From IMG/VR virus record IMGVR_UViG_3300047666_000614, positions 1-21,455 of that record: a stretch of 21,455 bases of DNA, one strand, 5' to 3'. Positions 10,227 to 20,993 of the stretch are shown piece after piece. The notes under the pieces were generated by a model. That model worked only from the letters and a program-made list of their open reading frames with translations. It was not told where the DNA came from and ran no database searches. Numbering within the stretch: position 1 is the first letter of the stretch; every line of letters starts with the position of its first letter. Source of the DNA: a virus. The translations under genes were made by a program, and so were the position numbers.

Positions 10227-11777
10227 ATGCCTCGCATCCCTATTCAATCCCTTGTCTCCTCCCGTGAATCTGGTGTGGATGTCCAACCTGGTGCCTTTCA
10301 AGCCACTGCTCAAGCCACTGCCAACCTGATGTCTTCCGTCAGCGGGGCGGCACAGATGGTGAAGCAACAGTTCGACCGGGCCCAAGACTTGCGGAACCGC
10401 ACACAACTCTCTGAGGAGAGGCGGGGGTTACGCGATGCACGGGGAAACTTCTTGAATAAGATGAATGGTCTCAACGCGGACGGCTCACAAGGAAAGCCAG
10501 TCCCGCCCGCGCAGTGGGGGCCACTCTGGAAAACCGAACTGGACGCAATAAAAAAAGGATTTGAGGATTCTGACATGCCCCCAGTCGTTTCCCGTGCATT
10601 GGCTGAAGACTATGAAAACTTCGCGGGATCTAGCTACGTTCAAATTGCTGGTGCCGCCCTCAAGTTGAACCAGCGGGAAGCTCGCCAGAACTTTGACCGT
10701 GATCTTCAGCATTTTGTGACTGAAGAAAACTGGGAGGAAGCCGGAGGGTTAGTCAAGAATGCTAGGGGGTATGAAATCACAGATGGTGAAGCTGATGGTT
10801 TGAACAAGGCACTGGGTGTGGGTAAACGTAACGCGGACATGGCAACCAGCTTGGACGCTGACCCGGAGGACCATATCAAGAGAATCAATGAGGATGCATT
10901 TGGGCGACTTGCGCCAAGCCAGAAGCGGAAGGAAATCAAGAAAGGCGAACTTGGGATGACCAAGCTGGAGGTTGAGGGTGTCACATTTTTGCAAGACATG
11001 CTCGAAGATGGTAACTACAAAAATATGGGGGAGTTTGAAGTGGCCATTGATGAGATTTCCCACATCACACCACAGACCAAAAAGCGACTGCTGCGGAATT
11101 TCAAATCCAGTGCCCCTATTTCAGAGGGGGGATTACTCTACCTCCAGGACAAGATTGATGACCTCACCAAATTGCGAGGTAACCCAGAGGAATATGAGGC
11201 AGCGTGGAATAAACTTAAAGTCGAGCTTGGGACATACCGGCGTGAAGATATAGGGCATTTTAATACCACCATGCATTTGGAAGCTCCACAGAAGTATTCA
11301 AAGGAGGCGAATGTAAAGCGGACTGAAAAAGAACGGCAGGAAATGTTAGCACCTCTGGCAACGGTAGCAAATGAGTTAGTGAAGGGGCGTGCTGCTGGAA
11401 TTGCAGACATCGCCCAGCAGAAGTCTAACAGCGCCATGGCAGCTATACTTGGGGATGCTGATCCTACCAACGATCAAGCTTTGCAAACAACTATTGGTAG
11501 CAGTGAGTTAAAGCAAACCAACATTCTCGTCCGGTCTGCTCTTCATAAGGAGATGAACAAGTTCATCATGGACTACATTGCAGAGAAAGGGCGCAACCCC
11601 ACCGAGCTGGAGATGAAGAAGTTCCTCGACACTGATGGTGACCGGATCGCTGAAAAAGCAATGGGGACAGTCGGTGGAAGTCTTTCCATCCCCGGTGTCG
11701 CCGCGCCGAAGAAACTAGAAGGTGCCAACCTCGCTAAGGATTGGCTTTCACCCACCACGCTCCCAAAGAACCAATAG
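10227..11777 (+). CDS. Internal virion protein C (T7 gp15-like ejection protein)
   Basis: This gene encodes 516 residues, nearly all predicted helical and highly charged, with no cysteine-rich or membrane region. T7 gp15 (747 residues) forms the periplasmic conduit with gp16; this protein is shorter. The N-terminus (AFQATAQATANLMSSVSGAAQMV) resembles the alanine-rich start of gp15-type proteins. The rest is a run of helices resembling tandem helical repeats, including EDHIKRINEDAFGRL and a late DYIAEKGRNPTELEMKKFL. The gene starts two bases after the previous stop (TAG-TA-ATG) and ends two bases before the giant gene, so the three ejection genes form a tight translational unit. The assignment depends mainly on gene order. 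Confidence 0.78.
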   Translation: MPRIPIQSLVSSRESGVDVQPGAFQATAQATANLMSSVSGAAQMVKQQFDRAQDLRNRTQLSEERRGLRDARGNFLNKMNGLNADGSQGKPVPPAQWGPLWKTELDAIKKGFEDSDMPPVVSRALAEDYENFAGSSYVQIAGAALKLNQREARQNFDRDLQHFVTEENWEEAGGLVKNARGYEITDGEADGLNKALGVGKRNADMATSLDADPEDHIKRINEDAFGRLAPSQKRKEIKKGELGMTKLEVEGVTFLQDMLEDGNYKNMGEFEVAIDEISHITPQTKKRLLRNFKSSAPISEGGLLYLQDKIDDLTKLRGNPEEYEAAWNKLKVELGTYRREDIGHFNTTMHLEAPQKYSKEANVKRTEKERQEMLAPLATVANELVKGRAAGIADIAQQKSNSAMAAILGDADPTNDQALQTTIGSSELKQTNILVRSALHKEMNKFIMDYIAEKGRNPTELEMKKFLDTDGDRIAEKAMGTVGGSLSIPGVAAPKKLEGANLAKDWLSPTTLPKNQ

Positions 11778-11779
11778 CA

Positions 11780-14700
11780 ATGCCTGAATTTAATCCTTTC
11801 GAATCTGACTTCAGCACTTCAGCAGTTGCTTACGGTGACCCTGTGGCAGCAGACCAAATCGGTCTGGACATCCTCGACAAACTGGAACAGGGGAAAGCCC
11901 AGAAGGGCCTACATGGTCCGGAGTTTGATGCTGTCATTGACACTGGGACTCCCAAGCTCATTGCCAACTTGGCAAAATATAGGGACTATAAGACAGGACG
12001 CGGGGAGGAGATGTTCAGCTACCAAGCTGAAATCACTGCCCGGAAGGAGGCAATCCGAGGTGAAGAACTCGCACGGTATGCAAACAAACTCCTCATGGGC
12101 GGGGAGGAAACATTCCAAGCAATCTTGGAAGAGAATGGGCACGCTGAGGAATTCAACCATCAGCGTCTATTTATGCAGGATGAGGGGGCTTTTCGTGAGC
12201 GTTACTCAGCGAACTTGCTTATGAAGAAAGCTGGGTTCGGCGTCAACCAGATCAAGTCTGGTGCCGCCGAGCCACCGATGCGGAAGTTCCTTGATGCCAA
12301 AGAGGACGGTTCAGAAACCACCCGTGCTGCATTTTCCCGGTGGAGCCTCGCCAAGATCAATGCGGTTGATAACCGGCGCGAGTATGTGGATACCGCCCAG
12401 ACATCAGCGTTTAACAACATCCTTGGGATGCAAGGTGACGTGGATGATTTTGAGGAGGTGATGGAGAAGGATTTCTCCACACTCGCTAAAAGTGAACGGA
12501 CTCAAGCTCGCGCCCACTATGTTAAGACCGCAGCAGCCTTGAGGGCAGACTTTGGCCATCTCATACCTATGGTGCAGAAGGTGTTCAACACCATTGCCGC
12601 CGAGGAAGATATAACCACAGAGTTCGACGAAGCTGGACAATTTGCAAGTTTAGAGAAAGCAGCCCTAGCCATGGGTCGAATCCCTAAAAAGGATTGGGAT
12701 AAAATGACCGCCATGCTTGCTAAAACCGCCGAAGCGCATGGGCAGAACCCTGACGGCTTTGGGCGCAAGCTTGGCAAACATTTTGCGAGACCCATGGAAC
12801 GCATGTTCTCCAGCGCAGCGCGGCCTAAGAACATTCGTGATGCGAGAAAAGACATCATTGATGCCAAACGTATCCGTGATGTCGGTGCCAGCCAGGACTA
12901 CATGGTTGAATATTTCAATGAAGATGGGACCAGTCGTGGCATTGAGCTGCAATCAAGGACACGTGGAAGGGTGTCATTTCTCGACACAGTCATTAAAGGG
13001 GATTATGTCGAAACATTGGCAGAAGCTCAAACGAGGGCTGATGGCAATGTCAAACGGTGGAACTCGGTGTCCTCCACCGCTGCACAACGTAAAGCAAACC
13101 CCAAAGTGGGAAGTGCTAAGGTTCTCACCTCTGAGGAAGACTTGAAGCGCGGGGTAAAATATTTTGAGAGTCAAGGCAGAGGTCAGGAGTATGCTTCTAA
13201 GATTTACAATTGGCGCGATGCAGTCGCACGTATTGATCACAACAGCAAAAGTGGGGCCCAAAACATGTTCATGGATAACTGGGTCTATGGTGTCGTCGGC
13301 TCACTTCCTGAGATGGGTGCCGCCGCAACCGGCCTCCCAGGTGTCCTGCTTGTGGCTGCTGCAAAGTCTGAGCAGAACATGGCGGACATCCGAGAGCGAA
13401 CTAACCCAAACGACTGGGAGGCGCAGGAAGGCGCAGCCCTAGCAGCTGGTGTGACATACAGTCTTCTCAACTATGCCCAGCTGAAGACCATCACGAAGCG
13501 ACTCCCAGCCACAAACACTTTCATCAAAAAAGCTGGCACAATCTGGGCTATCGAGACCGCACAGGAGTTGGGGCAGGATTTCTCCCTCGCCCTAACGATG
13601 GAGCTTTACGGTGCAGTCAGTGATGACATCAAAGACTTCGACATGCGCTCTGATAAAGATAAGGATGTGGAGGTATGGACTACTGAGATTGGGGAGAACG
13701 ATGGAGAGCTTTTGAAGCTCATGAAAAAGGCACCCATGACTGCTTTCGCGATGTTGCCTTTTGCTGTTGCCGGTGCTGGTGGCAGCAAGGCACTGAAATA
13801 CATAGACCAAAAAAGTTTTGAGAATCTCTTCCGAGATAGTGAACTGCTGGAAGCTTATGGGGTAGACCAAGAGAACCAGCTCAAGATCCGAAATCTGAGT
13901 CTGCCGGATGCTTTGGACTTCATTCAGGAAAACAGTGGTGCTTTCCTTTCCAACATGGATGGGAAGTTTGAAGCTGCCTTGTCTGGGAACATGGCATTTG
14001 AGCAAGACCATTCAGGCAATGGCCAGCCAGCCATTTCTGAACCGACGACTCAACAGGCACTGATTGCAAGTCAGATCAACCAGGCTGAAAAGAAGCTTCT
14101 GCCGGAGGAACAGGAAATAGCTAATTTTGAAGAGTGGAAAGCCCGAAAGGAGTTTGCTGATGAGAAAGAGCAGGGGGAGAAAACCCCGATGGGTCAGATG
14201 CTTGATGAGCGTTATAGCACCTACTTGGATGACCAACTTAAGGCCATGATTGGTGCAGACAAAACCGACCCCAACAGATCAGCACTTGCAAGGGTTAACG
14301 CACAGGTGGTGCTTCGTGATAAGCTGCTAGAGTTGGAGGCACAGGTAGCAGAGCAAGCACAGCAGAAGCAAGCACAGCAGAAGCAAGCACAGCAGGATGA
14401 GCAAGCACAGCAGGATGAGCGGACACGGATGGGTGAAGGCTTCAGTGGGAGATTTATTGCCCGAGGCGATGGGACACTCTCTGTCACGAATGGGGACCGC
14501 ACAATCGTAGCACACTCCCCAGAGGAGGCTGCCGAGGCTGCACAACAGTTGGACCCGGGGTATTTGGAACGCCGCACGGCGGGGATCAAAGCAAAGGCCA
14601 AGGTTGTATCAAGTGAAAAGATCACCGGTTTGAAGGTGGATATGGCTAAAGACCTCGCCACCATGTCAGCGAAACCTCTCGATATAGACATGTCGTTGGC

Positions 14701-17700
14701 TTTAGACCCACTCATGCCCACCACGAACCCTATTAGCCACCCAGAGGTGACTGAAGGGGTGATTGGCATACTGCGAGCAGCAGGGATAAAAAATGACATC
14801 TGGTTTGGGTCCAAGCTCGGGAAAAACACCTTAGGGACTTTCAACCCAAACAATGGTGTCATTCGTGTAGCCCAGCATGGGGACATTCCTACGGCAGCGC
14901 ATGAAGCAGCTCACGCCATCCAAGACGGCTACCTCTACAAAGGGGAAGTTATGACGGACAACAACTGGAGAGAGGATACCGGTGTGCCAAAGGACGTTCA
15001 AGATCAGTTGATTGACATCGCTGGGGAGAACTATGCAGGGGGCACCATGCGTTCAGAACTGATCAACGAAGGCATTGCCAAATCTGAAGGGTTCGCGGAA
15101 TACGTCCGTTTGAAACTTGCGCCGTCTCTTAACCCCACGACAGGGAAAAGAGCAGATGTGGCAAAGGATTATCCCCTAGTGGACAAATGGTTTGAAAGCA
15201 ACATCCTCCAGAAAAGTCCAGAACTAGCAAAGAGTTTTGATGCTGCAAAGAAAGCGGTTGGTAAATATGCAGATCAAGGGGCGCTAGCACGTGGTGAAGC
15301 AAACATAGCGGACACCCCGACACTCAGGGCGAAAGCTGTTGAGAGCATGCGTGATACTGCGAAATCTACGGTGGGGGATTGGGTTGAGATGTTTGACCCA
15401 ATCCGCAAGATGGTTGCCACAGTCGAGAAAGCGACAGGGGTTAAGTTGGTGGGGACCAAAAACCCCTATGACGTGTTGAAAGTGCATCGGATGACCTCTG
15501 ACAACATTGTTGACCGCATGGTTCATAGAGGGATGGTGTCGTATTCTGGTGCATACACAAAGTCCCCCAGCTTGGAGAAAATTTTACAACGTGTCCCTAA
15601 AAAGGATGTCAGAAAATGGTTGGTCTATCTCTGGGCGCGTAGAACATTAGCTTTAAACAGATCAAAAAAGCCTCGGAACTCGGGCATGCTCGTTGTGGAT
15701 GCTGATTACCTGGTCAAAAAACTCAAGAACCCTGACTTCGACATCGCCGCAACCCAGTTCTATGAGTGGGAAAATGGTGTGCTTCAATACGCTGCTGATT
15801 CCGGTGATCATTACAACCACATGGTGGGTGAGATCCGTAAAGGCGATGCTGGGGATTACATCAGTTTGCAAAGGGAGTTCACAGCACTGGACGAGAAATT
15901 CACATCCTACAACCCCGGTGCAACAGGGCAAAACAAGTTAGTGAAACACATGACCGGCTCCGGACGGAGGGTCATGAACCCCCTTGAGTCTGCAATTGAG
16001 AATGCAGAAATCATCGTTGGGGCGTCACAGCGGACAGCAGCGATGGAGAGTTTAGTTGATTTGGTCGAGGCAAACCCAAAAGTGTTGGGGCACCTTGTGG
16101 CTGAGATCAAGAATGATGATTCCATTCCATTAGCAGCGCGGGCAGCAGAGACGCTGTTAGACCAAATTGGGAGCAAACTGGGCGGCGAGAGTCAGAGGTT
16201 AATTCAAGAAGCGAAAGACCACATGAGTGAAAGCGAGGCTGGCACAGTCATCACAATGTGGGGGAAACCCTATGTGCCCGATTCCGCACTTGGGAGAGCT
16301 ATTATCCCAGTTATGCGTGGGGGCAAAATGAAATATTTCGAGGTAGACCGTGAAGCGTATGAAGCTTTCAAAGGTTTGGAGATTTACCGGCTCAACAAAT
16401 ATGCCGACTTAGCTGTTGGGCTTCCCAACAGAGCTTGGAAAATCGGGACCACAACTCTCAGCCTCCCTTTCCAAATAGTCACGGAACCGCTTCGAGGGAC
16501 TTCCATTCTCTACCGCCAAACTGGTGGCAAAGCCGGACTTGTTCGGACCTTTGGTGAGTGGGTGGCGGAAGCAACCACCTCCTCATTAGAAGCCCTAACC
16601 GCCAATAAATTCCAAACCACAACAGGGAAACTGTTTGAGGAGTTGAACCTAGGGATGACGACACGTCTCGGTGCCGATACATACCACCGAAAAGCAACTG
16701 TCAAACGGTTACACGATGGGAAGATCCTGCGAGTCGTTCGCTCATCAGAACTCTTAAGCTACTACAAAGATGTGATTCAGTTTTCCGATAAGGCGGTGAA
16801 GCGTGTTGAACTCAAACGCGCAATGCGTGACCTTGGCTTTAACCCAAAAACAGATGAGTTAACACCAGACATCGCCCAGCAAATCACGTTGCGTGCCGCT
16901 GAAGTAGATACAGATTTCCGGGGTGCTGGCAAATATGGGAGAGTCTTTAACCAAATCTCACCATACTTCGGAGCTAAGGTCCAAGGTATCCGTGGGCACG
17001 TTCGAGCCTACACTAAGGCAAAAGACAAAATGACCCAAGATGGGCGAAGTGCTGCTGAGTATTACCTGCTGAATCAGTTCATGGTCCGCAACTACATCAT
17101 GTCAGGAGTTGCTGTTGCAGGGTGGCTGACATACAAAGATGAGGAAGGGTGGAAACAGATGGACGAGAGGGAGAAATATTCTGCCTCCTACATCCCTATC
17201 CCTGCGGACATCTCCCTCTCCGGCGAGCCGGAACTGTTGAAAATCCCAAAGTCCCATGAACTTGATGGTTTCTTCATGGGCGCACCGGTGGCCATTTTGG
17301 ACGCGATCTACCAAGACGATCCGAAACTCGCTACCGACTTCGCTAAGGAGTTTGCAAAGCAAACTTTTTCCGCTTCATTACCGGTGGGTGCAGATTACGC
17401 GCTGGAAGTGGCAGGGAAGAGAGACACCTTTGGTCGTAAAGTTGTCCCAATGTGGGAGGAAGTTCTCGATCAAGATGGGCAGAGATATCGCCAATTCGGT
17501 AGCAGAACCACCAAGGTGGCAGTCAGTTTGGGGAAACGCTTTGATGTGTCCCCCCGCAAGATTGACCACTTTGTGAAGAGTTTTGGGGGAAGAAGTTCCG
17601 CTGACATATTGGAGTTCTTCGGTGTCCAAGGGAAGACGGAAGACCCTCACTTGGTCAACACCCCGATTTTGGGGCGTTTGTTCCACCCACCAGGGCAAGC

Positions 17701-17977
17701 ATCCTACTATCCAAAGAGTCAAAAGGAGTTTGATGAGATTTTTGCCGACATGAAAGCACGAAGCTCCGCGATAAACCGGTCGGTAGAAGAGACCGGTGGT
17801 CAGCGTGCTGCACGGCTAGATTTTGAAGACGCTAGAGATGCCATGTCGATCCTCTGGAAAGTGGAAGAGCACACCACTGACCAGAAAGGGATTCGTGAAC
17901 TGCGAAGCCAGAGACTCCAGATTGCAAAAAGTGCGGTCGCTCTATACAAGGAGCAGGAGAAAACCCTTAAAGATTAG
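11780..17977 (+). CDS. Giant ejection protein (T7 gp16-like position) with zincin motif and polyvalent-type C-terminus
   Basis: This 2065-residue protein starts at the ATG at 11780, two bases after the previous stop (an upstream in-frame TTG at 11741 is inside the previous gene). T7 gp16 (1318 residues) occupies this place and spans the inner membrane during DNA entry. Regions seen: a helical N-terminus to about 490; hydrophobic or glycine-rich segments near 500-535, 553-600 and 653-668 that could insert in a membrane; a Gln-rich repeat at 859-880; and a gluzincin-like site HEAAH at 1041-1045 with EGFAEY at 1103-1108, where E1107 may be the third zinc ligand. A C-terminal region of about 1547-2030 contains ISPYFGAKVQGIRGH and RKIDHFVKSFGG, recalling the large polyvalent protein-associated domain LPD38 of phage proteins. 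No lytic transglycosylase motif like that of T7 gp16 was found. The virion role is well supported by place; protease activity is a prediction. Confidence 0.88.
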   Translation: MPEFNPFESDFSTSAVAYGDPVAADQIGLDILDKLEQGKAQKGLHGPEFDAVIDTGTPKLIANLAKYRDYKTGRGEEMFSYQAEITARKEAIRGEELARYANKLLMGGEETFQAILEENGHAEEFNHQRLFMQDEGAFRERYSANLLMKKAGFGVNQIKSGAAEPPMRKFLDAKEDGSETTRAAFSRWSLAKINAVDNRREYVDTAQTSAFNNILGMQGDVDDFEEVMEKDFSTLAKSERTQARAHYVKTAAALRADFGHLIPMVQKVFNTIAAEEDITTEFDEAGQFASLEKAALAMGRIPKKDWDKMTAMLAKTAEAHGQNPDGFGRKLGKHFARPMERMFSSAARPKNIRDARKDIIDAKRIRDVGASQDYMVEYFNEDGTSRGIELQSRTRGRVSFLDTVIKGDYVETLAEAQTRADGNVKRWNSVSSTAAQRKANPKVGSAKVLTSEEDLKRGVKYFESQGRGQEYASKIYNWRDAVARIDHNSKSGAQNMFMDNWVYGVVGSLPEMGAAATGLPGVLLVAAAKSEQNMADIRERTNPNDWEAQEGAALAAGVTYSLLNYAQLKTITKRLPATNTFIKKAGTIWAIETAQELGQDFSLALTMELYGAVSDDIKDFDMRSDKDKDVEVWTTEIGENDGELLKLMKKAPMTAFAMLPFAVAGAGGSKALKYIDQKSFENLFRDSELLEAYGVDQENQLKIRNLSLPDALDFIQENSGAFLSNMDGKFEAALSGNMAFEQDHSGNGQPAISEPTTQQALIASQINQAEKKLLPEEQEIANFEEWKARKEFADEKEQGEKTPMGQMLDERYSTYLDDQLKAMIGADKTDPNRSALARVNAQVVLRDKLLELEAQVAEQAQQKQAQQKQAQQDEQAQQDERTRMGEGFSGRFIARGDGTLSVTNGDRTIVAHSPEEAAEAAQQLDPGYLERRTAGIKAKAKVVSSEKITGLKVDMAKDLATMSAKPLDIDMSLALDPLMPTTNPISHPEVTEGVIGILRAAGIKNDIWFGSKLGKNTLGTFNPNNGVIRVAQHGDIPTAAHEAAHAIQDGYLYKGEVMTDNNWREDTGVPKDVQDQLIDIAGENYAGGTMRSELINEGIAKSEGFAEYVRLKLAPSLNPTTGKRADVAKDYPLVDKWFESNILQKSPELAKSFDAAKKAVGKYADQGALARGEANIADTPTLRAKAVESMRDTAKSTVGDWVEMFDPIRKMVATVEKATGVKLVGTKNPYDVLKVHRMTSDNIVDRMVHRGMVSYSGAYTKSPSLEKILQRVPKKDVRKWLVYLWARRTLALNRSKKPRNSGMLVVDADYLVKKLKNPDFDIAATQFYEWENGVLQYAADSGDHYNHMVGEIRKGDAGDYISLQREFTALDEKFTSYNPGATGQNKLVKHMTGSGRRVMNPLESAIENAEIIVGASQRTAAMESLVDLVEANPKVLGHLVAEIKNDDSIPLAARAAETLLDQIGSKLGGESQRLIQEAKDHMSESEAGTVITMWGKPYVPDSALGRAIIPVMRGGKMKYFEVDREAYEAFKGLEIYRLNKYADLAVGLPNRAWKIGTTTLSLPFQIVTEPLRGTSILYRQTGGKAGLVRTFGEWVAEATTSSLEALTANKFQTTTGKLFEELNLGMTTRLGADTYHRKATVKRLHDGKILRVVRSSELLSYYKDVIQFSDKAVKRVELKRAMRDLGFNPKTDELTPDIAQQITLRAAEVDTDFRGAGKYGRVFNQISPYFGAKVQGIRGHVRAYTKAKDKMTQDGRSAAEYYLLNQFMVRNYIMSGVAVAGWLTYKDEEGWKQMDEREKYSASYIPIPADISLSGEPELLKIPKSHELDGFFMGAPVAILDAIYQDDPKLATDFAKEFAKQTFSASLPVGADYALEVAGKRDTFGRKVVPMWEEVLDQDGQRYRQFGSRTTKVAVSLGKRFDVSPRKIDHFVKSFGGRSSADILEFFGVQGKTEDPHLVNTPILGRLFHPPGQASYYPKSQKEFDEIFADMKARSSAINRSVEETGGQRAARLDFEDARDAMSILWKVEEHTTDQKGIRELRSQRLQIAKSAVALYKEQEKTLKD
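14354..14419 (+). repeat. In-frame tandem repeat encoding a Gln-rich linker
   Basis: Two perfect 15-base units (CAAGCACAGCAGAAG at 14354-14368 and 14369-14383) are followed by two perfect 18-base units (CAAGCACAGCAGGATGAG at 14384-14401 and 14402-14419). They encode QAQQK twice and QAQQDE twice, residues 859-880 of the giant ejection protein. The frame is kept. The segment lies between the helical N-terminal half and the zincin site, so it is probably a flexible or coiled linker that can change length by slippage. Confidence 0.92.
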
Positions 17978-18019: not shown

Positions 18020-18610
18020 ATGCCAGTCACAGTAACAGACACCGTATCGACATACGCCGGTAATGGGGATGCGAATACCGCATATGCCATCACAATCCCC
18101 CGGAGCCGAGATGAAGATCTATTCCTGGAACTGGATGGTGTCAACTCCACAGACTTCACCATCTCACCTGATGGGTTCAGGACTGGCACTGCATTGGCGA
18201 GCACCGTCAAACTGGTCCTTTACCGTGCCACACCACGAACTCAGGACCAACCCTTCCCTTCAAACACCACTCCCCCAGCGGAGGATGTGCGTGCTGCGGT
18301 AGACAAGCTCACCCTGACTACTCAGGAGATTGATGAGACTGTCGCACGTAGTGTTCAGAGCGCAATTGGGACTGCCTTTGCCCCCCTGACCGCCCTTGGC
18401 TTTGACTCACTTGGTGTGCCACTTGCCCGGACAGCTACACAAGAGGTTGCTTTTCTTGGACTTGATTTTGTAATTTCCCGCATTGCAACCTTGGAGGCTG
18501 CGGTCGCGGCACTCGGCGGCGACGTTTCTCCCCCAAGTATCCCAGCTAATGCTCTCACCTTCGGCGGCGATGCTCTCACCTTCGGCGGCGCAACTCTCAC
18601 CTACAACTAA
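18020..18610 (+). CDS. Tail-fibre adaptor with T7 gp17 N-terminal domain
   Basis: This gene encodes 196 residues. The first 120 or so match the T7 tail-fibre N-terminal domain that fixes fibres to the gp11/gp12 junction. They show a beta-strand start (YAITIPRSRDEDLFLELDG), then VKLVLYRATPRTQDQPF, and a helix PAEDVRAAVDKLTLTTQEIDE. The hallmark is the order 'l-x-R-x-t-x-x-t-Q-x-x-x-F', then 'a-x-x-l-x-x-A-x-D-x-L-x-x-x-x-Q-E'. Unlike T7 gp17 (553 residues) there is no shaft or receptor-binding part: after a short helix (RIATLEAAVAALGG, possibly a trimerising coiled coil) the protein ends with a repeated ALTFGG motif. It therefore looks like a docking piece that receives the separately encoded fibre downstream. 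The gap before it (42 bases) contains no Shine-Dalgarno sequence. Confidence 0.88.
   Translation: MPVTVTDTVSTYAGNGDANTAYAITIPRSRDEDLFLELDGVNSTDFTISPDGFRTGTALASTVKLVLYRATPRTQDQPFPSNTTPPAEDVRAAVDKLTLTTQEIDETVARSVQSAIGTAFAPLTALGFDSLGVPLARTATQEVAFLGLDFVISRIATLEAAVAALGGDVSPPSIPANALTFGGDALTFGGATLTYN
18551..18607 (+). repeat. Tandem 21-base repeat encoding ALTFGG units at a protein C-terminus
   Basis: GCTCTCACCTTCGGCGGCGAT at 18551-18571 is repeated with two changes at 18572-18592, followed by a shortened, diverged third copy at 18593-18607. The product ends ALTFGGD-ALTFGGA-TLTYN (residues 178-196 of the fibre adaptor). The regular L-T-F/Y spacing suggests short beta-strands. Confidence 0.88.
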
Positions 18611-18618
18611 ATAAAAAT

Positions 18619-20298
18619 ATGGCCCTCACTCTCGACACCGCAATCACACCCACAACCGGCACAAAAATCGCGTCACTTGATGTGGCAGGGAATGCTACAA
18701 TCGCTCAGATTAACGCACTCACCACAAAGACTGATGTGGGTCTCACCAATGCTGACAACACCAGTGACGTCAACAAACCAATCTCAACTCTTACCCAAGC
18801 GGCTATTGACGCTGTTGACGCTGGCTTTGGTGGAGCGGAACCTCCCCCACCAGTCATCACTGCTGGCACAGGGTTCCCTTATGCCGACGTGGACGCTGAC
18901 GCGATCATTGCAGCAACCTCAATCACTGACGATCTCGGCATCAACCACTATCAACGACTCATCACCGGTTTGAAGAAGGCCAACCTATGGGCCGACATCG
19001 AGAGTGGGTTCCTTTTTGGTGACAAGCATCAGGATGATGACACAGGCGCAGCGGTCAGACCCTTCAAAGGCGCGGCTAACGCAGCCGGAACTGGTGTGAA
19101 TGGTGACTATTCAGTCGCGCTTAATGGGTCAACTAATGGCTATGAATTCCCAAACGAGAGTGAGATCCCCACCGCTGGTGTCACTGTCGTGGCACTATTT
19201 AAACAGGATCAAACCTTTGACACTGCTGTTTCCTCCCCATCTGTCTTGATCTCCGCTGCCAAAGGTTCGGCTGCTAAAGGAATGTCTCTGCTGAGTGCGG
19301 GGAAGGGTGGCGGCACAGGTGGTACTAGTACAATCGACTACGTCGCTGGTTTGGTCGCAACAGTGGCAACAGTCTCGACATCAGGCACTAACGCCGAACC
19401 CTTTGTTGATAATGCCCATGAAGGGGAATGGTCTTTCGGTGCATGCTCTTACCTCGGCACAACAGCGACCGTTATGGGTAATTCCAGAGAGGTTGCGTCT
19501 GCAACATCTGCAACATTCTGGAACAACAACACCGATTGGGCCATCGGTAAGAACCCTAACAATTCCTACTACTTCAAGGGGGAAATTGCGGCAATTCTTG
19601 TCTATGATGTCGGTCTGACAACAGGTCAGCTTTTTGAGCTTCGTCTCTTGCTTGAATCTGTCATGACAGATTCAATTGATTTCCCCCCATCAATCACCTT
19701 TGAAGGTAACTCCCTTACAGCCTCCGCCCCCGGTGGCGGGACAACTTGGCCAACACAACTCCTTCTCGAAACTGGTTGGACAACTGTCAGAAATGAAAAC
19801 CTTGCGGCGGATGGTGCTCGCCAGATGGATAGAGTGGAGAACCAATATTACAACAAGGCTCGTCGATGGGTGGGTGCAAACCGTGCCAAACGGATTTTTG
19901 CTCTCTGGAGTGGGGTGAACGATTTGACCGCGTCTTACACATCTGCAGGGATTATTGCTTCACTGAAACGTCAGCTCCTTGCCGCCAAAGCTGATGGGTT
20001 CTTCGTCATCATTATGCCAATCACCCCCGTTGCAAGTGCTGGTGATGGCATGACATACGGATACAGCACCACCCAGCAGACACGTTTGACCGAAGTGAAC
20101 ACTTGGATCGCCGCTGAAGGTGCTGCAATTGCCGATCAATTCCTCAATCTGAACCTGATTGCCAACACTTACGCGGCATTTTCTGACCCTACCGATACCA
20201 CTTATTATGTTTCCGGTGATGGTCTCCACCACAATGATGCCGGACGTGGATTGATCTCTGATTACTTCCTCGCAAACGTGGCTATCCCGACGGCCTAA
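18619..20298 (+). CDS. Tail fibre/tailspike with C-terminal SGNH hydrolase domain
   Basis: This gene encodes 559 residues. The N-terminus has the phage-fibre motif GLTNADNTSDVNKPISTLTQ (residues 41-60), common where fibres attach or trimerise, then a Pro-rich linker. Residues of about 100-350 look like a concanavalin/LamG-type beta-sandwich (YSVALNGSTNGYEFP; late FKGEIAAILVYDVGLT). Residues of about 358-555 carry the SGNH blocks in order: GNS with S365 (block I), G399 in AADGAR (II), GVND with N434 (III), and DGLH with D534 and H537 (V). All four catalytic or oxyanion residues are present, so an esterase or deacetylase acting on acylated surface glycan is likely. Block I reads GNS rather than GDS. 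The protein may trim capsule or O-antigen during adsorption. It starts eight bases after the adaptor stop behind an A/T-only leader. Confidence 0.86.
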   Translation: MALTLDTAITPTTGTKIASLDVAGNATIAQINALTTKTDVGLTNADNTSDVNKPISTLTQAAIDAVDAGFGGAEPPPPVITAGTGFPYADVDADAIIAATSITDDLGINHYQRLITGLKKANLWADIESGFLFGDKHQDDDTGAAVRPFKGAANAAGTGVNGDYSVALNGSTNGYEFPNESEIPTAGVTVVALFKQDQTFDTAVSSPSVLISAAKGSAAKGMSLLSAGKGGGTGGTSTIDYVAGLVATVATVSTSGTNAEPFVDNAHEGEWSFGACSYLGTTATVMGNSREVASATSATFWNNNTDWAIGKNPNNSYYFKGEIAAILVYDVGLTTGQLFELRLLLESVMTDSIDFPPSITFEGNSLTASAPGGGTTWPTQLLLETGWTTVRNENLAADGARQMDRVENQYYNKARRWVGANRAKRIFALWSGVNDLTASYTSAGIIASLKRQLLAAKADGFFVIIMPITPVASAGDGMTYGYSTTQQTRLTEVNTWIAAEGAAIADQFLNLNLIANTYAAFSDPTDTTYYVSGDGLHHNDAGRGLISDYFLANVAIPTA

Positions 20299-20303
20299 CC
20301 CAC

Positions 20304-20993
20304 ATGAAAATAGTTTTCCTCCTCCTCCTGGCTGGTGCTTTGGCATCGTGTTCGCACGCGCCTTCGTCACCCCCAGAGGAGAGGACCATTCCCGTGGTCA
20401 CTATCCCTACCGCTCCACCCGTGCCAAATGTGGCAGAGGTTGAGCGCAGTGTGCAAGATCTCTCCATGGAGGTGAGTGACGCACGTGAGGAAGTCCGTGC
20501 TGCATCTGCCAAAGTTGCAGAGGGGGTTGCTGAATCAGCCAACCTGCGTGACCTCATCGAGCGGGAATATCAAGCTGCCGAACTGACGGCCCAAGCCGCA
20601 CTGGAGAATATTCGGGACGCTGCTGGTCGAACTGCCACCAAGCTCAGTCAAACGGTCACACTCCTCAACGTCGCATCGACACGGCTCACTGACGCAAATG
20701 AGCGGACCAGTGAGCTAGCACTTCAAGTCTCTGACCTCAAAAGTGAACTCGCCATCCAGACCAGTCGCATTGCGGAGTTCCGTGAGATTGCCTCAGTCGC
20801 CAATCGTCGGAGCGAAGCCGCGACATCCCAGAAGGATGAGTTCCAGAATGCCCTCGCCACCTCCGTTGCTTCTGCCACTATCTTGACCAAAGAGCGGGAC
20901 AAAGCCAGAGGGCACCGGCGGACACTGCTCATGACAACTGGGGTGCTGACAATCGGACTCCTCGGCCTTGCATATCTCCTCTTCAAACCGTAA
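20304..20993 (+). CDS. Probable unimolecular spanin (lipoprotein with C-terminal membrane segment)
   Basis: This gene encodes 229 residues. The N-terminus is a lipoprotein signal (MKIVFLLLLAGALASC) with lipobox LASC and the lipid-bearing Cys at 16. Residues 17-41 carry eight prolines, as in Rz1-type spanins. Residues 42-206 contain no proline and are Ala/Glu/Ser-rich, expected to form one long helix or coiled coil. Residues 207-227 form a membrane segment (TLLMTTGVLTIGLLGLAYLLF) followed only by Lys-Pro. A lipid anchor at one end and an inner-membrane segment at the other is the layout of u-spanins such as T1 gp11 (131 residues), which fuse inner and outer membranes at lysis. The basic cluster (KERDKARGHRR) lies before the membrane segment, the reverse of what the positive-inside rule predicts for this topology. 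A virion lipoprotein is the alternative. No holin or endolysin is visible nearby. Confidence 0.8.
   Translation: MKIVFLLLLAGALASCSHAPSSPPEERTIPVVTIPTAPPVPNVAEVERSVQDLSMEVSDAREEVRAASAKVAEGVAESANLRDLIEREYQAAELTAQAALENIRDAAGRTATKLSQTVTLLNVASTRLTDANERTSELALQVSDLKSELAIQTSRIAEFREIASVANRRSEAATSQKDEFQNALATSVASATILTKERDKARGHRRTLLMTTGVLTIGLLGLAYLLFKP

Follow-up and report, generated by a model that had tools for sequence, protein, structure and literature searches.

The gene at positions 20304 to 20993 of the window probably encodes a unimolecular spanin (u-spanin) with a coiled-coil rod. The window is the whole IMG/VR record IMGVR_UViG_3300047666_000614, 21,455 bases long and classed as linear, which often means a fragment. 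The u-spanin architecture itself is already known, being defined by an N-terminal lipoylation signal and a C-terminal transmembrane domain (PMC6139136), and the candidate is most likely a new, helical variant of it. We infer the lysis function, probably disruption of the outer membrane late in infection, since the fragment holds no holin or endolysin and no homologue of the candidate was found. The gene and its parts are arranged as follows.

18020..20298, + strand: tail-fibre genes upstream of the candidate (18020-18610, and 18619-20298 with Laminin_G_3 and GDSL esterase domains)
20304..20993, + strand: u-spanin candidate gene, 229 aa, ATG start (codon usage; sole lipoprotein-like ORF of the window)
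20304..20351, + strand: lipoprotein signal MKIVFLLLLAGALAS and lipobox LAS-C16 (Cys16 at 20349-20351), Ser at +2 (sequence; h-region KD 2.67)
20352..20429, + strand: proline-rich linker, residues 17-42, 8 prolines (sequence; disordered in the AF2 model)
20430..20921, + strand: predicted helical rod, proline-free, residues 43-206, 164 aa (AF2 helix 43-226; periodicity test P=0.003)
20889..20921, + strand: basic stretch K196-R206 (KERDKARGHRR), directly before the membrane segment (charge count)
20922..20984, + strand: C-terminal membrane segment, residues 207-227, TLLMTTGVLTIGLLGLAYLLF (KD 2.01 for 208-226; Hessa sum -0.64)
20985..20990, + strand: two-residue tail KP (sequence)

Codon usage identifies the ORF as coding: its frame scored +0.18 per codon against -0.12 to -0.49 for the five other frames, and its GC3 was 0.58 vs 0.61 for the big genes of the window. 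Only 6 bases separate the stop codon of the tail fibre from its start. The candidate is the sole lipoprotein-like ORF of at least 28 aa on either strand and, among the + strand membrane ORFs of the window, the only one that does not lie inside another gene. No second lipoprotein or i-spanin-like ORF was found in the 21 kb window, itself a fragment of a genome, nor did a search of the window that included the other frames reveal a nested, overlapping or separate o-spanin ORF. When the residues of the window's 90 ORFs of at least 70 aa were shuffled, 5% of 2000 trials yielded any ORF with both a lipobox and a C-terminal membrane segment (a mean of 0.05 per window), a control in which coding evidence, proline layout and heptad period were not counted.

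Signal and membrane features were called from hydropathy scales and motif rules rather than by trained predictors, and the calls bore out the layout proposed in a sequence-only reading of this DNA. The lipobox claimed at Cys16 is L13-A14-S15-C16 (LASC) by both sequence and motif rules; this is the only cysteine of the protein, so that the periplasmic part has none. The proline-rich stretch, previously placed at residues 17-41, is given here as 17-42. Eight of the nine prolines fall within residues 20-41 and the last is residue 229, leaving 42-228 proline-free, and the run of about 165 residues without proline noted earlier came to 164-165 (residues 43-206 make 164). The membrane segment was recovered at 207-227 as claimed, with its best 19-residue hydrophobic window at 208-226 and a position-independent Hessa sum that favours insertion.

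Single-sequence AF2 modelling produced one continuous helix over residues 43-226, with a rod pLDDT of about 87-98 over most of the length (mostly >90) and no beta strand anywhere in the model of the candidate. The rod contains three glycines, at positions 74, 108 and 203. Its hydrophobic residues (43-206) recur with a period of 3.52 (P 0.003 on a binary scale and 0.0065 on the KD scale; 2000 shuffles), which is the coiled-coil value and not that of a plain helix, and the best-fitting heptad register changes at around residues 71-98. Because alignment-free AF2 readily draws long helices for such sequences, the helix is taken to rest jointly on the model, the lack of proline, the low glycine content and the heptad period. 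A Foldseek search of the rod model against BFVD was uninformative (best E 4.5). If fully helical, the 164 residues would extend 24.6 nm at 0.15 nm each, in agreement with the earlier estimate of about 25 nm, the helical part of which is supported by the AF2 helix. The accompanying suggestion that the protein spans the periplasm by length alone survives in part: a rod of this length would give tethering, but a length match alone would not disrupt membranes. For lysis, the rods would still have to bend, tilt or collapse once the wall has been cut.

The window encodes a podovirus late region comprising part of the large terminase, a portal of the Head-tail_con type (PF12236, E 1e-75), a capsid protein (PF19821), tail tubular proteins, a gp14-like internal virion protein, a 2078-aa gp16-like protein with LPD38, and tail-fibre genes. 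In the gp16-like ejection protein (11741-17977), an HEAAH (HExxH) motif with SEGFAEY after it is conserved and varies little among relatives; the HEAAH motif suggests that a zinc-metallopeptidase domain is built into this protein besides LPD38. Tail fibre 18619-20298, in which a Laminin_G_3 domain is accompanied by a C-terminal GDSL/SGNH esterase domain, is probably an esterase or deacetylase carried on the fibre. Relatives of the virus, almost all of them metagenomic contigs, share 57-80% capsid and 61-100% portal identity; one virus (L012) encodes a portal protein identical to that of the window and overlaps its upstream part only.

No holin or endolysin gene occurs in the window, which probably ends before its own. 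The gene content of three relatives places the lysis genes of the group in the tail-fibre region and indicates that the gene at the spanin position is not conserved. The 36.5 kb relative G001 encodes, downstream of its tail fibre, a CHAP-type endolysin (PF05257 E 4.5e-6; PHROG endolysin E 5.6e-12) along with two small membrane ORFs, a lipoprotein of 56 aa and a gene of 160 aa. Downstream of its fibre genes, L035 has a lipoprotein of 96 aa and a membrane protein with two segments. In the fibre region of L053, a holin-like ORF comes with a small ORF whose N-terminus is hydrophobic and which a lipoprotein ORF overlaps; a 301-aa gene and a lysozyme endolysin are also there. The lipoproteins of relatives in the tail-fibre region differ from the candidate. 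Such a lack of conservation is usual for spanins, to judge from the catalogue, which contains 143 i-spanin and 125 o-spanin families, many of them singletons (PMC6139136).

In L053 (L053:18158-18691) the holin-like ORF is followed by a small ORF (18319-18582) that the lipoprotein ORF overlaps in another frame; this is possibly a two-component spanin, and spanin type may then differ inside the virus group. Distant relatives carry lipoproteins with a DG(V/L)(V/I)TPE motif downstream of the gp16 gene (L056:14618-14956, L061:17032-17424 and L055:13556-14047); two of the three have a C-terminal hydrophobic segment, preceded by ~47-60 residues, too short for a straight helical bridge.

The candidate's place after the tail-fibre genes agrees with that of the annotated Rz-like spanin of CW02, and its position also bears on what else it could be. 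Many phages encode exclusion lipoproteins such as Cor and Llp, and the candidate adjoins neither a holin nor an endolysin in the fragment; it could on these grounds be a non-lysis lipoprotein for superinfection exclusion, receptor masking or envelope remodelling, held by its lipid and its C-terminal segment. We consider this improbable, as the exclusion lipoproteins known to us are short and have no C-terminal membrane segment, the candidate is packed on the late strand within the late tail-fibre region, and a 25 nm rod anchored at both ends has no evident use in such a role. The candidate is also flanked on both sides by fibre-like genes, as might be expected if it belonged to the tail-fibre module as a virion or assembly protein and used its hydrophobic N-terminal stretch and C-terminal segment in virion attachment or ejection. 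This is very improbable: the lipobox signal would export the protein away from assembling virions, the phage already encodes ejection proteins of the gp14, gp15 and gp16 types, and the annotated Rz-like spanin of CW02, located between an internal virion protein and a tail fibre, shows that a spanin can occupy such a position.

The distribution of charge around the membrane segment was flagged earlier as lying on the unexpected side. The basic residues are real, with +4 in the 15 residues before the segment and +1 after it, and the u-spanins of T1, KP34, SIO1 and CW02 have a charge of -1 or -2 ahead of the segment and one of +2 or +3 behind it. Basic residues before the segment are not unique, however: in phi12:1 gp64 and in gp49 of Flavobacterium phage 11b the charge is +3 before the segment and +3 or +2 after it. 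Because these u-spanins of Bacteroidota phages also place basic residues before the segment, the topology is less odd than first claimed. The low charge after the segment is only mildly unusual, and the tails of u-spanin-like proteins in other loci can be as short as KFVL. The charge difference of the candidate could point to an inner-membrane protein whose N-terminus is uncleaved or retained in the inner membrane and whose C-terminal segment is the second anchor. The rod would then form a periplasmic loop or, under the positive-inside rule, lie on the cytoplasmic side, and the protein would act as a holin regulator or spanin partner and not as a bridge; we give this very little weight, given the good lipobox, a Ser at +2, which in E. 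coli does not retain lipoproteins in the inner membrane, and the +3 that phi12:1 gp64 and 11b gp49 also show on the N-side.

The reading of the candidate as a two-membrane bridge assumes a host with a diderm envelope. A Shine-Dalgarno core 4-mer was present in 4 of the 18 gene-start regions checked in the window, about the chance level, and the gene starts thus hint at a Bacteroidota-type host. Several gene starts also appear A-rich, as in Bacteroidota phages. U-spanins are reportedly the sole spanin type among phages of Bacteroidetes (PMC12596118). A 7.4 kb contig of a Rickettsiales MAG (L038) encodes a portal 79% identical to that of the window; it is probably free phage DNA that ended up in the MAG during binning, and because of this possible mis-binning it was rejected as host evidence.

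For the unimolecular spanin with a coiled-coil rod, we modestly favour a class-I-like helical form in which a single chain combines an Rz1-like proline-rich element, an Rz-like coiled-coil rod and its own inner-membrane anchor. Signal peptidase II would cut before Cys16, the acylated N-terminus would go to the outer membrane, and segment 207-227 would remain in the inner membrane, so that one chain would bridge the periplasm and pass the peptidoglycan mesh, running from the lipid through the proline-rich linker and the coiled coil to the membrane segment. Chains could pair via the heptad surface. With the peptidoglycan degraded by the endolysin, the rods that bridge the two membranes would cluster and collapse. 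Candidate hinges are the proline-rich linker, near the outer membrane, and the place at ~71-98 where the heptad register changes. The collapse would pull the membranes together into fusion, as proposed for Rz-Rz1. More speculatively, the membrane-proximal basic stretch may interact with lipid head groups where the membranes fuse.

Helical two-component spanins have been likened to viral fusion proteins of class I, and the beta-rich u-spanins to those of class II (PMC6139136). If the assignment is true, a helical single-chain spanin would break this proposed split between helical two-component and beta u-spanins, and helical fusion machinery would work without a two-protein interface or disulphides. 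A single gene with a countable rod would also offer a simple system for asking whether rod length must match periplasm width.

Homologues of the candidate were found neither in 50,697 phage records (tblastn), nor in 18 related virus records, 2.35 Mb of fetched loci or PDB sequences, nor in IMG/VR by six exact 8-residue patterns, which can miss divergent homologues. The profile search of spanin collections proposed earlier was run on PHROG and matched no known spanin family significantly. The Rz-like spanin PHROGs 456 (E 0.047) and 812 (E 0.21) covered mainly the N-terminus, and phrog_10107 (E 0.008), phrog_13568 (E 0.024) and Laminin_II (E 0.11) appear to be coil or composition matches; all were set aside. 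A scan seeded with the tail fibre recovered only a common short fibre motif, and its loci were reused as a survey set.

We then compared architectures, requiring a lipobox, a signal-like N-terminus and a C-terminal membrane segment in six-frame ORFs from 18 sources. Five of 1,620 ORFs passed: the candidate, a small ORF of phage 11b, and the known u-spanins T1 gp11, KP34 gp54 (annotated as an Rz-like spanin) and SIO1 gp22. Looser or equal filters gave 9 matches among 5,250 ORFs of 64 related loci and 7 among 2,483 ORFs of 80 unrelated fibre-bearing loci. The longest proline-free periplasmic run in the unrelated loci was 71 residues, compared with 165 in the candidate, and the periplasmic part of the candidate measures 190 residues vs 59-116 in the known u-spanins examined. 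Three u-spanin-like proteins in unrelated loci (L119:8070-8555, L146:8033-8518 and L148:8035-8520) form a family with a lipobox, a 123-residue periplasmic part and a C-terminal segment followed by the tail KFVL; they differ from the 58 catalogued u-spanins in having several cysteines in the periplasmic part.

Overall, the earlier reading of the candidate as a single-protein spanin is supported: the architecture agrees with the published u-spanin definition, the same filter recovers established u-spanins, and the window contains no partner spanin. A lipobox signal, a single C-terminal transmembrane segment and the absence of periplasmic cysteines place it in the architectural u-spanin class, of which 58 members were catalogued in 677 genomes, all without periplasmic cysteines; the periplasmic domain of u-spanins is described as mainly beta (PMC6139136). 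It does not fit a two-component i-spanin of the Rz type, as its N-terminus is a lipobox, its C-terminus a membrane segment, and an o-spanin partner is absent from the window.

The T1 gp11 family (PHROG 1804 with T1 gp11, CW02 gp38 and SIO1 gp22, together with KP34 gp54, placed in it by PMC6139136) shares with the candidate the single protein, the lipobox, the single C-terminal segment and the lack of periplasmic cysteines, and in CW02 and SIO1 the u-spanin gene likewise lies among late tail genes. T1, CW02 and SIO1 match phrog_1804; the candidate does not up to E=1, and its AF2 model is helical, not mainly beta. At 133 aa, T1 gp11 is much shorter than the candidate (229 aa), as noted earlier. 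In its family the periplasmic part spans 59-84 residues and is described as mainly beta, and the C-tail is basic, whereas the candidate has a periplasmic part of 190 residues that is predicted to be helical, and a tail of just KP. The u-spanins phi12:1 gp64 (Cellulophaga) and 11b gp49 (Flavobacterium), which match phrog_5885, resemble the candidate in a short signal (Cys16/17), a charged or basic stretch before the segment, a short tail and a single protein. The candidate did not match phrog_5885 either, and these proteins have 99-116 periplasmic residues, a longest proline-free run of 52-69 (165 in the candidate) and no proline-rich N-terminal block.

Lambda Rz/Rz1 shares with the candidate a helical coiled-coil rod (Rz) and a lipid-anchored proline-rich region (Rz1), both functionally needed, as mutations that abolish function fall in the coiled coils of Rz and in the proline-rich region of Rz1 (PMC5295617). 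In lambda, two proteins are joined C-terminus to C-terminus, Rz is anchored by its N-terminus, and disulphides are present; the candidate would be a single chain in the reversed order, with a C-terminal membrane segment and no periplasmic cysteine.
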